Below are positions 34,649 through 57,469 of a stretch of 64,000 nucleotides of DNA, piece by piece; the first letter of the stretch is position 1; every line of letters starts with the position of its first letter. Position numbers and translations under genes: made by a program. The stretch lies in the NCBI GenBank assembly GCA_001464455.1, contig LNEI01000013.1, forward strand, positions 1-64,000, given 5' to 3'. Below the pieces are notes generated by a model. The model was given only the letters and a program-made list of their open reading frames with translations. It had not been told where the DNA came from and made no database searches. The stretch comes from Acidobacteria bacterium Ga0077534. GTDB lineage: Bacteria; Acidobacteriota; Blastocatellia; Pyrinomonadales; Pyrinomonadaceae.

Positions 34649-35896
34649 TTATTGTGGGACTCTTTCGCCGCCGATAACCGTAAACGCTATTTTGCCTTCG
34701 GCGTCGAGAGCTACGAAGTCGGCTCGTTTTCCGGCATCGAGGGAACCTCGCTCGTCGTCCAGCCCAAGCAGGATCGCAGGATTTGTCGATGCCATTTTGA
34801 AGACATCGTTCCTGGAGAATCCGATTGAAAGCATCATCCGCACCGCGTCGTCCATTGCGATGACCGAGCCCGCGATGCTGCCGCGTTCGTTGCGAGTGCG
34901 GCCGTTCTCGACCGTGATCGTCTCGCCCCAGAGCCGAAATTTCCCGTCGCCGAGGCCCGTCGGAGCGACGGAATCGCTAATGAGCGAAACCTTGTCGGTG
35001 GATTTCGCACGGCAAGCAACGCCGAGCATTTCGGGATGAACGTGGATACCGTCGGCTATAATGTCGAACGTTACGCCGTCATTCGCAAGCCCCCAGCCCG
35101 CAACGCCGACATCGCGATGATGCACACCGGTCATCGCGTTAAAGAAGTGCGTCATATGACGTGCACCGGCAGCATAAGCCCGATCCAAAGTCCCAAGATC
35201 GGCCCGCGTGTGCCCGATCGAAACAACCCAACCATCCGCAACCAGGGCCTCAATGATCTCGATCCCACCCTCGACCTCCGGAGCCAATGTGGTCATATGA
35301 ACGCCGCATTTCAACATCGGCAATCCCGCAACTCCCCTCCTTACGAAGGAGGGGTGGCCGCCGCTTTGGGCGGACGGGGTGGTTCTCTCCGCCGCGTCCG
35401 CGTATAGCCCTTGCTCACGCGCGGGCTTTTGCATCTCACGCCGCCCACCGCCAACCGCCGATCGCCCACTCTTAAAATACTCCGGCCTTAGCGCTCCGCA
35501 CATCTTTTCGTTGGCAAAGACGCCCTCGTAATGAACCCCGACCGCCTGCGCGACCGGCTTTCCTTCCTGCACGATCATCAATTCATCGATCGCGGCGATC
35601 ACACGCTCATAATTCTCATCCGAATCCGGCACAAGCGTCGGCATCCAGGCCGTCACCCCCCGACCCGCCAAAAACCCCGCGATCTTCATAAGCCCATCAA
35701 CATCCGCCTCATTCACATCGATGCCAACCGCCCCGTGATTATGCACGTCAATGAATCCGGGCACGATCATCAAATGGTCGTCCCGATCGTCGATGAACTC
35801 AACCCTTGATATCAGGTCACCGCCTATCTCGATCGCCGCCGCCGCCAGGTCACCGCGGCTCGTCTGAATTTGCCCAACGAAAGCCTGCACATCCAT
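34649..35896 (-). CDS. nagA: N-acetylglucosamine-6-phosphate deacetylase
   Basis: 415 residues. NagA motifs are GFIDVHNHGAVGIDV (metal), VGVHYEGVFANEKMCGALRPEYF with the metal-ligand Glu, GVHMTTLAPEVEGG, SIGHTRA, THFFNAMTGVHH and the catalytic Asp in SLISDSVAPTG. It deacetylates GlcNAc-6-P, the product of MurQ. Residues about 143-190 are an extra low-complexity stretch lying between PEYF and LPMLKCGVHM and encoded by stacked palindromic repeats. Without it the length would be near 368. The frame remains open and all catalytic motifs persist. It is downstream of the TonB receptor gene but behind a strong terminator. Confidence 0.93.
   Translation of the reverse strand: MDVQAFVGQIQTSRGDLAAAAIEIGGDLISRVEFIDDRDDHLMIVPGFIDVHNHGAVGIDVNEADVDGLMKIAGFLAGRGVTAWMPTLVPDSDENYERVIAAIDELMIVQEGKPVAQAVGVHYEGVFANEKMCGALRPEYFKSGRSAVGGGRREMQKPAREQGLYADAAERTTPSAQSGGHPSFVRRGVAGLPMLKCGVHMTTLAPEVEGGIEIIEALVADGWVVSIGHTRADLGTLDRAYAAGARHMTHFFNAMTGVHHRDVGVAGWGLANDGVTFDIIADGIHVHPEMLGVACRAKSTDKVSLISDSVAPTGLGDGKFRLWGETITVENGRTRNERGSIAGSVIAMDDAVRMMLSIGFSRNDVFKMASTNPAILLGLDDERGSLDAGKRADFVALDAEGKIAFTVIGGERVPQ
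35334..35430 (-). repeat. Composite palindromic repeats inserted in nagA
   Basis: Two elements are stacked in frame. One is a hairpin CCCCTCCTT-ACG-AAGGAGGGG (35334-35354) with a GC-rich CCGCC...GGGCGG stem to its right. The other is a REP-like word at 35407-35430 whose minus strand reads AAAGCCCGCGCGTGAGCAAG. The latter is about 21/24 identical to the REP arm in the FAD oxidase gene (56953-56979). Confidence 0.85.
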
Positions 35897-53003: not shown

Positions 53004-54503
53004 CTAAACAGTCGCCTGAACTGCAAATCCACGCATTGCGATCTTTTCGTTTTCCTGGGGTTCGATGCCCGCTGAGGAATAGATCGCGGCTAGATTCGCG
53101 ATGGCGGCGGCGCGGCTGGTTTCGTCGCGGATCTGGGCGATGACGTTTAGGTTTTCGAGTGCGACTGCTCGGACCTTTTCGGGCTGTTCGAGGGCGACGA
53201 AGCGGTCGGCGATCTCGTTTAGCACCTCTGAGCGGGCTGAGAATTGCGGGACGGTTTCGGCGAGGCTTGCCGCTTCGTCGAGGATCTCGATCGCCGCTGG
53301 GGCGTCGTCGAGTTTTCGCTTGGCGTCCGCCATCCCTATCAGTGCCATCAGCCGGCTGGAATCGTCTTCTATCTGGCTCAGAGTGTCGCGAGCGAGAGCG
53401 TCCTGTTTCTTGATCGTCATGATCTGGGCGATCTGGACCAGGGCGTTCATCTGTTCGTTCGGGTCGGCATTCTCAAGGCCGGCTTCGACTGCTCTTTCAG
53501 GTTTCTCAAAGGCAGCAAACTGCGTCGAGATCGTCGTAAACAGGGCGTTTCTGGCCCGGCTGTCGCGGGTTTCGGTGTCACGCTGCGATCTGATTATCGC
53601 GTACGCTTCTTCGAGCGAATCGACAGCTTCGTCTTTCTCATCTTTCGCCCAGTAATATCGTGCAAACGCCAGCATCGCCGACGCCATCTGCGTTTTGTCG
53701 GTGACGAGGTCGAGCGTTCGATCGGCGAGTTCGATGCTGCCCGCGTTTAGAAAGCCCATCGCACACATGACCAGAAACCGTTCGCGATGTTGATTTGTGA
53801 GCGTTTCGGCGATCGATCTCGCCAGGTCGTACGTCTCGATTGCTTTATCGTTCGCCTTGGCGTCGAGAAAGACGTTGCCGAGTTCGCAGAGCGTACGGAT
53901 CTGCTCTTCGTCGTGCTCGATCTCGCCAGCTGCGGCTACGGCCTCTTCGATCGTGGCGATACCTTCCGCCGTCTTTCCGGCGTCGATCTGCGATGCTCCT
54001 ATCTGCTGCAGAGCAGAGACGCGAGCAGTCGGGAACTCTATATTTACGATCGTTTCCTCGGCCGCAACTTCGTTTCCTGCGGACGCTTCATGTACGGCTA
54101 TCGCGGCATCGACAAAATCGGAATGCCCCATCAGATCGCCCACCTCGGACGCACGCTCGATCTTGCCCTTCCCGGCGAGGATCAGACCGATCCGTTCAAA
54201 TGCCTGAGACTGCAGCCCATGATCCTCGATGGCATCGGCAAGCTGCAGCCCGTAATCCTCATCATCGATCTCGGCACACTTGACCGCGACCGCGATCAAA
54301 AACTTATCACGCGAATGCGGGTCGTCGATCGCATTGGCAAGCTCCGCCGCTAGGTCAACATCATTCTTCGCCAAAAACTGCGGAATGATCGCCTTCATCG
54401 CCTCAGCATGCCCATCGCCGCTCCTTATCCTCTCGGCAAGGTACGCGGCACAATCAAGCAGGTCGTTTTCGGCTCGTTCAATTGAAATAAAATGGTCGCT
54501 CAT
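53004..54503 (-). CDS. Large cytoplasmic TPR-like helical repeat protein
   Basis: 499 residues, strongly acidic, without a signal peptide. The whole length is made of helix-pair repeats. TPR-like units such as AEGIATIEEAVAAAGEIEHD, DKAIETYDLARSIAETL and DEAVDSLEEAYAIIRSQRD recur, with ALQQIG and ALVQIAQIMTI spacers. This suggests a scaffold for protein interactions. No catalytic domain or partner is evident. It is immediately upstream of the RAYT-type element and convergent with the lysA-like gene. Confidence 0.85.
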   Translation of the reverse strand: MSDHFISIERAENDLLDCAAYLAERIRSGDGHAEAMKAIIPQFLAKNDVDLAAELANAIDDPHSRDKFLIAVAVKCAEIDDEDYGLQLADAIEDHGLQSQAFERIGLILAGKGKIERASEVGDLMGHSDFVDAAIAVHEASAGNEVAAEETIVNIEFPTARVSALQQIGASQIDAGKTAEGIATIEEAVAAAGEIEHDEEQIRTLCELGNVFLDAKANDKAIETYDLARSIAETLTNQHRERFLVMCAMGFLNAGSIELADRTLDLVTDKTQMASAMLAFARYYWAKDEKDEAVDSLEEAYAIIRSQRDTETRDSRARNALFTTISTQFAAFEKPERAVEAGLENADPNEQMNALVQIAQIMTIKKQDALARDTLSQIEDDSSRLMALIGMADAKRKLDDAPAAIEILDEAASLAETVPQFSARSEVLNEIADRFVALEQPEKVRAVALENLNVIAQIRDETSRAAAIANLAAIYSSAGIEPQENEKIAMRGFAVQATV

Positions 54504-54505
54504 AA

Positions 54506-54534
54506 GTCAGAACCGCCTGCGTAAGCGGGCGGCA
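54506..54534. repeat. Left inverted repeat of the RAYT element
   Basis: Begins GTCAGAACCGCCTGCGTAAG. It shares the GCGTAAGC core with the REP words inside the FAD oxidase gene. Confidence 0.95.
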
Positions 54535-54547
54535 AAAAACTGGAGCA

Positions 54548-55087
54548 TCAAGTGCTCTCTCGAATATCATAAAGGTCACCGCTAAAAACTGATAGGTCAT
54601 CACCCTGCCCGTTAATCACATAACCACATGCCATCAGAACTTCATCGTCGTTCCAAAGGTAACGCTTACTACCCTTGTCAGACCACGGGCTATGCGAATA
54701 CGCCCAAACTCCGGCTTCCTTCAGTCTTCTCGTTGAGTATGCCTTAAGATCATTCAAAATCTTATCCGCCGAGGTTCCCGCAACCACTGCGTGAGCATGA
54801 TTGGTTCTGACGTTTTGGGCATGAAGGAGCCAGTTTCGGAAACAGCATACTTCGATGATCGTATTCTGAACGATCTAGCGAGCCTCAGCGTTTAAGATGA
54901 AAGGATCACTTTTTAGTTTAACAACCTGCTGCTGCTCTCTCACAATTCTTGATTCTGCGGTTCGCGTTCCAAACTTGTTATGGTTTTTATCGACCGAACC
55001 TCTCTCGTCACCGTGCAGCCATGTTCCGTATGTTCTGAATGTTATCAGATAGGCGAGCGGTGTGTCGGTGTCGTTCCATTTGGACAT
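54548..55087 (-). pseudogene. REP-associated (Y1/IS200-like) transposase, interrupted by an amber codon
   Basis: The reading frame is continuous from the ATG at 55087 to a stop at 54548, about 178 residues, except for an in-frame TAG at 54875-54877. The N-terminal half begins MSKWNDTDTPLAYLITFRTY and has GTWLHGDERGSVDK. After the stop the same frame continues with FRNWLLHAQNVRTNHAHAVV, which contains the HUH-type His pair, and then SHSPWSDKGSKRYLWNDDEV near the end. The sequence resembles a small family of RAYT-like proteins known in cyanobacteria and Acidobacteriota. A C-to-T change of a Gln codon would explain the stop. It is probably inactive unless the amber codon is suppressed. Confidence 0.85.
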
Positions 55088-55112
55088 AACGTTGAAAGTG
55101 TCGCCGCTTGAT

Positions 55113-55141
55113 TGCCGCCCGCTTACGCAGGCGGTTCTGAC
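55113..55141. repeat. Right inverted repeat of the RAYT element
   Basis: Exact reverse complement of 54506-54534. It ends one base before the HAD gene stop codon, suggesting insertion into or right after that gene's 3' end. Confidence 0.95.
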
Positions 55142-55831
55142 TCAAAACACCCGCCTGACAGTTTCCGGCATCCAGTCGCTCAGATCTTTAGCAACCGCTC
55201 CGGCACCGGCGGCGCGGAGTTTGTCGGCTGATACCGTGTTTGCCACGCCGAGGGCCGGCAGGTCCGCAGCGATAGCGGCTTTTACGCCGGGAACTGTGTC
55301 TTCGATAACGAGGCATTCGTCGTGCGTCATCGGCAGATGTCCCTTCGAAATTCGATAAAGATCGATCTGGTTGAAACCGGTGCGGTAGCATTCGGGGTTC
55401 GGTTTGTGGGTCGAAACTTCCTCGGCACCGACAATGACGGCAAAATGCGGTGCAAGCCCGGCTTTTTCGAGCACGTATTCGATCTGCGAAGTCCGCTCCA
55501 TGCTTACGACGCCGAGTGCAAAATCGTGCGAGGCCTTTTCGATGAAACTTTTTACTCCAGGAAAAAACGGCAGGTCGTCGCCGACTATCTCGCGCCATTT
55601 GCCAAATTTAGCATCGATGATCTCGGTCACTTTTGCCGGATCGACCCTCTTGCCCCGACGCTCATGAGCCGCATTTACGAAAGCGACATCGTTCATACCG
55701 TGCGACGCAGCGTAATCTTCCTCAGTAACCTCAACGCCCTCGGCCGAGAGCAGTTCTTGATAGATCCGCATCTGTATCGGCTCGTCGTCGATGATCACAC
55801 CGTTAAAATCGAAAAGAATTGCTTTGATCAT
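55142..55831 (-). CDS. HAD-superfamily hydrolase (beta-phosphoglucomutase-like)
   Basis: 229 residues. Motif I is ILFDFNGVIIDDE, with Asn in place of the second Asp of the usual DFDGV. That second Asp is the general acid in phosphatases, so the enzyme may be slower or mutase-like. Motif II is GVVSMERTS, motif III includes the Lys of THKPNPECY, and motif IV is LVIEDTVPGVKAA. It hydrolyses or transfers phosphate on a small substrate in the cytoplasm. Its stop codon directly abuts the RAYT element, so its last residues may have changed after the insertion. Confidence 0.9.
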   Translation of the reverse strand: MIKAILFDFNGVIIDDEPIQMRIYQELLSAEGVEVTEEDYAASHGMNDVAFVNAAHERRGKRVDPAKVTEIIDAKFGKWREIVGDDLPFFPGVKSFIEKASHDFALGVVSMERTSQIEYVLEKAGLAPHFAVIVGAEEVSTHKPNPECYRTGFNQIDLYRISKGHLPMTHDECLVIEDTVPGVKAAIAADLPALGVANTVSADKLRAAGAGAVAKDLSDWMPETVRRVF

Positions 55832-55921: not shown

Positions 55922-57469
55922 CTATCCCAAATATTTTTCCTCAAACATATTCCCGCGTCCCAAGATAACGTTGGGGTCGAAGGACTTTTTGAGCTCGGCC
56001 ATTTCGTTCAGATATCGCTCGCCCATCATGGCCGCGAGGTATTTTCGCTTGAGCTTTCCGACGCCGTGTTCGGCCGAAACGGTTCCACCCAGCATTATCG
56101 CCTGAGCAACGCAGCGGCCATAAATGTGCCGAGCTTTTTCGGCTTCCGCATCGTCTTTCGGCAGCATGTTGGCGTGCAGATGACAATCACCAATGTGGCC
56201 AAAGATCACGTAATCGAGGCCGCTCGCATCAAGCGTCTGTTTATAGTATCGCAGAAACGATGGAAAGTTTTCGTCCGGCACCGCCATGTCTGTGCCGATC
56301 TTTCTTTGGCGGTTTCTGACGACGCGCTCGTTTACGGAAACCGGCAGAGCGTGGCGAAAGGCCCGCATTTTCTCGCGGTCAGGTTCGGTCGTCGTAAACC
56401 AGGAACGATCAATGTCGGCATTGTGCCGTTCGAGAAGTTCGTTCCACTGCTCAAACAGTGCGTCCTCGGTTTCCGCCGTTGTCTCCTGCTCAAAAAAGAT
56501 CGCCCCGGCTGCGTCGCCCGGCGTTTCAGGAAATTTCTCGGAAATAAAGCGAAGCGCGTTGCCGTCAAAGTACTCGATGAGCGACGCGTCAATATCGATT
56601 GCGACCGAGTCGGTTTTGTCAGAACCGGGAGCGGTAGCGACTAGGTTACGACGGGCCGCGAACGACCGCTGTCGCACCTCATCAACAAACCCCAACAACT
56701 CATTTGCGTCCCAAAAGAACACTACTCCGCTAAAAAACCCTTCCGGTTTCGGCAGCAGATCAAGTTCGACCTCCGTAATAACGCCCAGCGTGCCTTCGCT
56801 GCCGATGAACAGATCGATCAGGTCAAGCGGTTCTTCGTTGTAATACCCACTTACATTTTTGCGAACATCCGGGCGTTCGTAGGTCAATGGCGGAAGCCCG
56901 CTTTGCAGAAGCCCGCGCGTAAGCGAGAGCGATACATCGTACGTTCGTGTTTCGCCCTTGCTTACGCGCGGGCTTCCGCAATTGCGTTCGATCTGAACGA
57001 TCTCGCCGTCTGCCATCACGACCTGAAGCCGCCGCACGTAACGGCGGGTTGCCCCGTACTTAAAACTCCTCGCCCCCGAGGCGTTTGTCGCCACCGTTCC
57101 GCCGATCTGACAGCTCCATTCGGTCGGATCAGGCGGGTAGAAAAGTCCTTCGGCTTCGACGGCTTTTTGCAGATCAGCGAGTATGACCCCGCTGCCGACG
57201 GTCGCGACTTTTGTGTTTTTATCTATCGAGAGATGGTTCAGTTTTTCAAGCGAGATAACGACCCCGCCAAAAGGTATCGCACCGCCGACTGTTCCTGTTC
57301 GTGCTCCTGAGATCGTCACCGCCGTTCCGTCGTCGTTCGCTTCGCGTAGTATCGACGCGATCTCTTCGGCAGTTTCGGGAACAAAGAGCTTCTCAGCATG
57401 CCCGCCGGGCATGTTGCTCGCATCGGTCAAGTAGTTTTGTAGGTCGTCGGGCTGTGTTTTGACTTGCAC
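55922..57469 (-). CDS. FAD-linked oxidase of the GlcD / D-lactate dehydrogenase family
   Basis: 515 residues. The FAD-binding (PCMH) domain has GARTGTVGGAIPFGG and GTVATNASGARSFKYG, and the FAD-oxidase C-terminal domain has HIGDCHLHAN and SAEHGVGKLKRKYL. It oxidises a 2-hydroxy acid such as glycolate or D-lactate, possibly the lactate released by MurQ, though that link is speculative. Between VMADGEIVQIERN and DVRKNVSGYY there are about 35 extra residues (163-196) encoded by an inverted pair of REP-like words. Relatives go almost directly from the one to the other. The frame stays open. Confidence 0.9.
   Translation of the reverse strand: MQVKTQPDDLQNYLTDASNMPGGHAEKLFVPETAEEIASILREANDDGTAVTISGARTGTVGGAIPFGGVVISLEKLNHLSIDKNTKVATVGSGVILADLQKAVEAEGLFYPPDPTEWSCQIGGTVATNASGARSFKYGATRRYVRRLQVVMADGEIVQIERNCGSPRVSKGETRTYDVSLSLTRGLLQSGLPPLTYERPDVRKNVSGYYNEEPLDLIDLFIGSEGTLGVITEVELDLLPKPEGFFSGVVFFWDANELLGFVDEVRQRSFAARRNLVATAPGSDKTDSVAIDIDASLIEYFDGNALRFISEKFPETPGDAAGAIFFEQETTAETEDALFEQWNELLERHNADIDRSWFTTTEPDREKMRAFRHALPVSVNERVVRNRQRKIGTDMAVPDENFPSFLRYYKQTLDASGLDYVIFGHIGDCHLHANMLPKDDAEAEKARHIYGRCVAQAIMLGGTVSAEHGVGKLKRKYLAAMMGERYLNEMAELKKSFDPNVILGRGNMFEEKYLG
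56905..56979 (-). repeat. Inverted pair of REP-like words inside the FAD oxidase gene
   Basis: Arms at 56905-56931 and 56953-56979 are complementary with three mismatches. The minus-strand right arm reads GGAAGCCCGCGCGTAAGCAA. The arms share the GCGTAAGC core with the RAYT element ends, and the right arm is about 21/24 identical to the word in nagA. Confidence 0.9.

Follow-up and report, generated by a model that had tools for sequence, protein, structure and literature searches.

We consider it likely that the unit at positions 54505-55142 of the window (the whole stretch of DNA that was analysed, 64,000 nt) is a class-3-like REPtron that was inserted specifically in this lineage and whose transposase gene is now interrupted by a stop codon, that transposase (RAYT) and repeat (REP) form a matched pair, and that inverted pairs of the repeat (REPINs) reside in frame inside core genes, where the copies have been filtered by reading frame. 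RAYT-type genes, the presumed movers of short palindromic repeats, have received little study, and REPs take their name from an extragenic location. The unit and the genes on either side of it are made up as follows.

54505..54535, plus strand: left terminal REP1 arm, 31 nt, with GTCAG at its outer end
55112..55142, minus strand: right terminal REP1 arm, a perfect inverted copy of the left arm
54551..55087, minus strand: class-3-like TnpA-Y1 (RAYT-like) gene, interrupted; PF01797 match below cut-off; H97, H99, Y156 and Q161 conserved
54875..54877, minus strand: in-frame stop codon (TAG, codon 71) that precedes the HUH and Tyr motifs
55142..55831, minus strand: HAD-family hydrolase gene (Pfam HAD_2), its stop codon directly adjoining the unit; present in 30/30 loci compared
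53004..54503, minus strand: TPR protein gene on the other side of the unit; follows the HAD gene in 30/30 loci compared

The original prediction held that exact inverted repeats bound a unit with a single gene, and this is confirmed, the repeat being 31 nt long; the two arms are 100% complementary, and approximately 1e-11 such pairs would be expected by chance. Within the window, the 8-mer GCGTAAGC is not enriched (5 occurrences versus 2.25 expected, matched by 7 of 100 shuffles). A longer REP1 pattern is found 6 times versus 0.97 expected, a count reached by none of 100 shuffles; four of these six matches come from the two ends of the unit, each read on both strands, while the remaining two carry two mismatches. 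The gene between the arms scores 20.3 bits against PF01797 (E 6e-4), and 21.5 bits (E 2.7e-4) when the TAG is read as Q, which is still below the Pfam cut-off of 23. The match is stronger in some relatives, and PF01797 (Y1_Tnp) is matched by 36 of 36 aligned members including the window copy at E ≤0.01 (best 1.2e-10), so that the description of the gene as HUH-transposase-like stands, more precisely as a RAYT-like gene framed by REPs. In the family alignment, H97 and Q161 are invariant and H99 and Y156 are conserved at 90% or above; the window copy reads NHAH and YVINGQ at these motifs, with G at the position of the published motif's E. When compared with solved structures, the family profile gave a weak best match to IS200-type transposases (E 0.044) and a single RAYT sequence gave no match, and PHROGs returned weak matches only. 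The genome (4.20 Mb in 32 contigs, 97.9% complete) was found to contain three RAYT genes, with the copies on contigs C11 and C27 being 53% and 41% identical to the window copy, respectively.

Named genomes scanned with a single RAYT sequence yielded no match, whereas the alignment-based scan did find relatives, encoded by at least 530 candidate stretches, of which the best 80 were examined. HxH is present in 80/80 and Y----Q in 77/80 of these, with an internal stop in 2/80. An inverted-repeat flank score of at least 40 was obtained for 67 of the best 80 of at least 530, with a median of 59; mismatched loci, used as a control, gave a median of 18 and a 95th percentile of 44. Going by their titles, we take 65 of the best 80 of at least 530 relatives to be of Acidobacteriota type, including Pyrinomonadaceae and Blastocatellia, and 14 to be Planctomycetota, with one labelled 'bacterium'.

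The TAG at codon 71, which the original prediction did not mention, is the sole in-frame stop of the window RAYT. Since it precedes H97/H99 and Y156, the truncated product is predicted not to be catalytic, and the interrupted gene is probably not an active REP source now. We consider it unlikely that the TAG is read through or reflects an assembly error, with the RAYT being active still: the frame is otherwise open, HUH, Y and Q are all retained and an internal stop occurs in just 2 of the best 80 named relatives, but the TAG is single and clear in an assembly that is 97.9% complete. Programmed recoding via recurrent internal stops was considered and rejected, as 30 of the first 32 RAYT loci lack an internal stop, the two with one being the window copy (codon 71) and L063 of G004 (codon 134). 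Among 40 further RAYT loci, L169 has a stop at codon 158.

The HAD gene occurs in 36 of 41 genus genomes including this one, and 30 loci were fetched, 29 of them from other genomes. The RAYT unit is present at the HAD-TPR junction in this genome only and is absent from all 29 other loci, in which the gap between both genes measures 11-542 nt; the unit is therefore probably an insertion of this lineage, made into what is probably a permissive junction. The proposed check for empty sites at the end of the HAD gene thus came out as anticipated. Moreover, the unit is not conserved at this site and its end sequence does recur in the genome, the two points on which the original prediction was most exposed. 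One other genome, G032, has at the same junction a 143-nt stretch with a REP1-type REPIN, for which a parallel insertion is the simplest reading. Apart from REPs, a small gene is present at the junction in G031, G010 and G020 (L084, L086 and L091). The one in G020 encodes a 23S rRNA intervening-sequence family protein (PF05635, E 7e-31), and the G031 and G010 genes look alike. By eye, the gaps of L073, L077, L078, L079 and L089 contain other palindromes, of CACAGAT..ATCTGTG or CGCAAAGAC..GTCTTTGCG types, which are perhaps another repeat class.

Judged by published motifs, the window unit resembles a class 3 TnpA-Y1 REPtron. In the part of Quentin et al. 2018 available to us (PMC6006769), class 3 comprises 24 proteins at most, of approximately 178 aa, with NHxH, Y----Q and a conserved N-terminal region; they occur mainly in Planctomycetes, Acidobacteria and Proteobacteria, have high-copy flanking structures and a CnGA foot, and are viewed as possible intermediates between IS200 and REPtrons. 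The family described here has the HUH and Y----Q motifs in an IS200-like domain of approximately 178 aa, with the window copy below the curated Pfam cut-off, and the best 80 of at least 530 relatives are mainly from the groups just named. REP1 is repeated in the host genome and has a 5' CnGA foot, its outer end GTCAGA holding CAGA. The foot is not general in the family, given that REP3, the repeat of the C11 RAYT, has CAGT in place of the CnGA of the class 3 set (PMC6006769, same part). That part of the paper also makes no mention of class 3 REPs within other genes, which is where many of the present ones are located. Class 2 RAYTs (TnpA-REP) are described there as having a Y---NP motif and a GT[AG]G foot, instead of the Y----Q and GTCAG foot seen here. 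As far as the accessible parts of PMC3116915, PMC8049555 and PMC8266576 go, class 2 RAYT/REPIN systems are alike in having an HUH transposase gene framed by REPs, a separate RAYT for each REP family and REPs arranged as inverted pairs, but differ in that REPs were counted in extragenic space (PMC3116915).

The exact inverted ends and the absence of the unit from the site in relatives would also fit an ordinary IS200/IS605-type insertion sequence that moves whole, with the REP1 words as solo ends or derivatives, and Y----Q is said to relate to class 1 (PMC6006769, in the part available). We nevertheless regard this as quite improbable. The genome has just three RAYT genes, of which the other two are only 53% and 41% identical and have their own REPs, and near-identical copies of the whole unit were not found in it. 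In addition, the NCBIfam IS200/IS605 model NF033573 scores 15.6 bits versus a cut-off of 55, and the dispersed REP1 and REP3 copies include, in the fetched stretches, 33 inverted pairs of 79-162 nt.

The RAYT search covered 60 genomes including this one and gave matches in 36. From 86 matches listed, 72 were used and 14, mostly fragments, were left out. Clear inverted REPs flank both sides of 68 of the 72 RAYTs (4 were dropped), and for these 68 elements RAYT identity and REP similarity are correlated with a Mantel r of 0.64, the highest value in 2000 permutations being 0.10; the earlier claim that RAYTs and REPs are paired is thereby borne out. The window RAYT groups in a clade with RAYTs of G013, G020, G023, G026 and G035 (support 98/93), all of which have REP1-type flanks even though they are just 56-61% identical to the window RAYT. 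Exact REP1 copies have a median of 8 in the 6 genomes with a REP1-type RAYT and of 3 in the 31 without one (one-sided p 0.020; G060-G063, which were not part of the RAYT search, were left out). REP1 copy number is thus only loosely tied to the presence of a REP1-type RAYT, and this counts against the main explanation; in G003, which has 35 REP1 copies, the search revealed no REP1-type RAYT. On the basis of pairing and co-distribution, REPINs may be mobilised by their cognate RAYT. As to location, the C11 RAYT (G000 C11:19696-21559, L136) immediately follows aroC, and in G033 its relative (C52:51341-54359) is located approximately 1.3 kb downstream of that gene, so that this REPtron may be an old fixed locus. 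Both flanks of the L047 RAYT (G030) carry, by eye, similar copies of one stretch, perhaps the 3' end of a gene.

REP1, from the window unit, is present in the genome as 28 exact 25-mers, and its variant pattern has 63 matches at ≤3 mismatches; recurrence of the unit's end sequence had been put forward as a check and is clear from these counts. REP3, from the sister RAYT on C11, has 64 matches at ≤3 mismatches (30 exact). REP2b (GCACGAAGTAAGG), from the C27 RAYT, has 68 at ≤2 mismatches (39 exact), and the REP2a pattern GCCCNCNCGTNAGNAAGGGC has 70 at ≤1 mismatch. The reversed control gave 0 matches for each of these patterns. The fetched stretches contain 23 REP1, 10 REP3, 36 REP2a and 19 REP2b inverted pairs, which, as two close inverted REPs dispersed over the genome, are REPINs. 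Two REP2a elements are located in window genes:

56904..56980, no strand assigned: 77-nt REPIN of family REP2a, located in frame within the FAD oxidase gene (55922-57469, minus strand)
35407..35432, minus strand: half-site of family REP2a, located in frame within the nagA-like gene (34649-35896, minus strand)

The words in nagA and the FAD oxidase had been considered to resemble the end word of the unit. They are genuine REPs, but belong to a different family, REP2a, which does not flank any of the genome's three RAYTs but is found around RAYTs L201, L202, L203 and L206 in relatives. The proposal that this element seeded the REP words, including those inside genes, consequently stands in part: REP1 does enter genes (LeuRS, AroC, ALDH, TrpE, MutS2 and more), but the nagA and FAD oxidase words have another origin in REP2a. 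Assignment of the FAD oxidase REPIN to the C27 RAYT was rejected, since the C27 flanks are REP2b (GCACGAAGTAAGG) and not REP2a (GCGCGTNAGCAAGG).

The REP1 table, compiled at ≤4 mismatches, has 42 places including a few REP3-like ones, and 11 of these are REP1 in frame in genes with a Pfam hit, encoding LeuRS, ALDH, XdhA, AroC, an ABC exporter, M1 peptidase (2), an S58 peptidase, MutS2, TrpE and terminase. For REP3 (31 places, among them one REP1 place and the RAYT flanks), 13 are in frame in such genes: UvrA, PurH, DnaE, MetRS, three TPR proteins, an ABC exporter, an Eco57I-type methylase, an A2M protein, MutS2 and M1 peptidase (2). A second REP3 batch adds MurC, a fourth TPR protein and a deiminase gene. 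REP2a (40 places, 11 later ones and the nagA half-site) occurs in Pfam-supported genes for the FAD oxidase, a YpdA-like reductase, a further Pyr_redox_2 oxidoreductase, a GT9 transferase and nagA. REP2b does so in 1 of 23 places, in a histidine kinase (the first 20 listed REP2b places were fetched). The REP3 peptides of the four TPR proteins (L223, L224, L231 and L324; G000 C16, C19 and C27) are near the N-terminus, and these proteins may be paralogues. A codon-usage filter for real genes proved too harsh, dropping the Pfam-matched GT9 transferase, XdhA and S58 peptidase, and Pfam was used instead. ORFs C18:519309, C18:140199 and C23:9271 have no Pfam hit and were not counted, and ORF C8:21297 was rejected as a host gene for the same reason; it contains what is presumably a tRNA-gene translation artefact.

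The extent to which the REPs in genes obey a reading frame was assessed on a hand-made list of elements whose host has a Pfam hit. In 25 of the 27 REP1/REP3 elements in Pfam-supported genes, every end is in one and the same proline/alanine/glycine frame (p 3e-6 versus a null of one half, which is our own reading, two of three frames per strand being stop-free in the consensus). The 5' arm then encodes S(E/V)PPAxAGG and the 3' arm PPAxAGG(S/T)D, with some substitutions. With the four TPR proteins collapsed into one, the result is 22/24 (p 2e-5). The exceptions are the XdhA REPIN, at one end, and the deiminase gene. REPs C15:11917 and C11:21581 near N-termini use other frames and probably precede the true gene starts; when they are counted in, the result is 25/29 (p 5e-5). 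Some shorter ORFs outside the Pfam test also use other frames (e.g., C8:66692). In the locked frame, the 5' arm admits only C or T as the variable base of GCGTNAGC, because A or G gives a stop. REPIN length points in the same direction, being 1 mod 3 for 12 of 13 same-family pairs in Pfam-supported genes versus 8 of 20 elsewhere (p 0.003, or 0.018 when the five related 121-nt REPINs described below are taken as one), in a test that is not independent of the frame test.

Mechanistically, the HUH/Y1 transposase would cleave REP hairpins formed by single-stranded DNA, close to the outer GTCAG foot, and the REPINs would be re-joined elsewhere in the genome. Insertions into genes would survive only if they keep the frame, avoid a stop and provide a flexible proline/glycine-rich loop, and such selection would give rise to both the frame lock and the recurrence of REPs in the same loops of several species. 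Homologues of three host genes were compared, with REP-peptide loops judged by eye. For AroC, 30 loci were used out of 38 genomes with a match, and for LeuRS 30 loci. The AroC loop has a REP peptide in 4/30 loci (G000, G006, G008 and G025), another repeat in G005 and G062, other long loops in 7 and a short stretch of 15-48 nt in 17, with the frame kept in 30/30. LeuRS has REP peptides in 4/30 loci (G000, G005, G062 and G036) and none in 26. The FAD oxidase has a REP2a-type peptide in 3 of the 26 loci covering the place (G000, G008 and G024), with 3 partial loci and 1 without a match left out. Relative to solved homologues, residues 283-320 of AroC (versus 1q1l), approximately 101-124 of YpdA (versus 7a7b) and 202-240 of PurH (versus 3zzm; the REP accounts for 229-238) are extra, and the FAD oxidase is approximately 44 residues longer than 7qh2 at the REP place.

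The return of REP peptides to the same loop of AroC (4/30) and LeuRS (4/30) could also mean that REPINs in genes are beneficial, e.g., as regulated or protective loops, and not merely tolerated. From the sequences compared here this seems very improbable: other repeat types are present in the same AroC loop (G005 and G062), which is expected of a tolerant site. The recurrence itself may be due to loop tolerance alone, given that both loops also contain non-REP sequence in several genomes, and this counts against the main explanation. The AroC and LeuRS loops do vary in length and sequence across the genus, but we give next to no credence to the in-gene stretches being linkers rich in proline and alanine whose likeness to REPs is due to chance or convergence, given that the DNA matches genome-wide REP families for which reversed controls have no match, the arms form inverted pairs, 17/30 AroC loci have loops of just 15-48 nt and the solved homologues lack the stretch.

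Five REP1 REPINs, in LeuRS, ALDH, AroC, the ABC exporter and an M1 peptidase, are exactly 121 nt long and have the same orientation to the host gene. They share a left arm in which CCCCC..GGGGG replaces CCGCC..GGCGG, two of them with one further change, and at 0-1 mismatch this variant arm has exactly five matches in the genome, which are these five REPINs. Their spacers have diverged, with only the ABC exporter and M1 peptidase pair being clearly alike (score 38; null maximum 24). The spacers of this pair also resemble that of C17:40015 (34 and 28), and the ABC exporter spacer that of C17:4476 (score 30). Both of the latter are REPINs with the ordinary arm outside Pfam-supported genes, so that the variant derives from the general REPIN population. 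By a rough estimate, random insertion followed by loss of frame-breakers would leave about half of the copies in genes, so that five of five is suggestive but not proof. A possible, if doubtful, reading is that the five form a REPIN subfamily adapted to life inside genes, which, as a mobile element of the RAYT-REPIN system that codes for linkers, spread from gene to gene via LeuRS, chorismate synthase, ALDH, the ABC exporter and the M1 peptidase; its marks would be the length of 121 nt (3n+1), the paired C/G swap that keeps the palindrome, the stop-free proline/glycine frame and the single orientation.

REPs in ORFs and RPEs (PMC3733652) and class 3 (PMC6006769) are already in print, as can be seen from the parts of both papers available to us. 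The former describes intragenic REPs of Opitutus terrae and others, together with Rickettsia RPEs, as REP singles or dimers within ORFs, which is the situation found here; dimers or groups within ORFs encode 20-30 residues, and many are in genes for DNA synthesis or repair (PMC3733652, in part). Those repeats differ in being of GTAG and CGTC families, the CGTC (RPE-like) ones without a transposase, and that part of PMC3733652 gives no account of one fixed frame or of a subfamily confined to genes. The present REPs share with RPE-like elements their in-frame residence in protein genes, a likeness in behaviour only, and we do not class them as RPEs. In the open-access literature, taken without supplements, we found no report of class 3 REPs inside genes, and none describing a fixed frame or a REPIN variant confined to genes. 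Core enzymes that contain two REP families, each with its own transposase type, in a near-constant frame constitute a natural experiment on how mobile DNA becomes protein. In addition, the at least 530 candidate stretches are a large set for a nearly undescribed transposase class, and the many RAYT-REP pairs can be used for working out a recognition code.

In one M1 peptidase gene (L138, L228 and L230; G000 C19:958-3367), REP1/REP3 elements have inserted at least four times, always in frame. The nagA gene contains, in frame at 35330-35395 of the window, a second palindromic repeat, which is GC-rich and encodes a peptide like SPPYEGGVAAASADGVV; this repeat is also in frame in an Eco57I-type methylase and XdhA (the hosts at L233 and L135), and the AroC loop of G005 and G062 has a related peptide.
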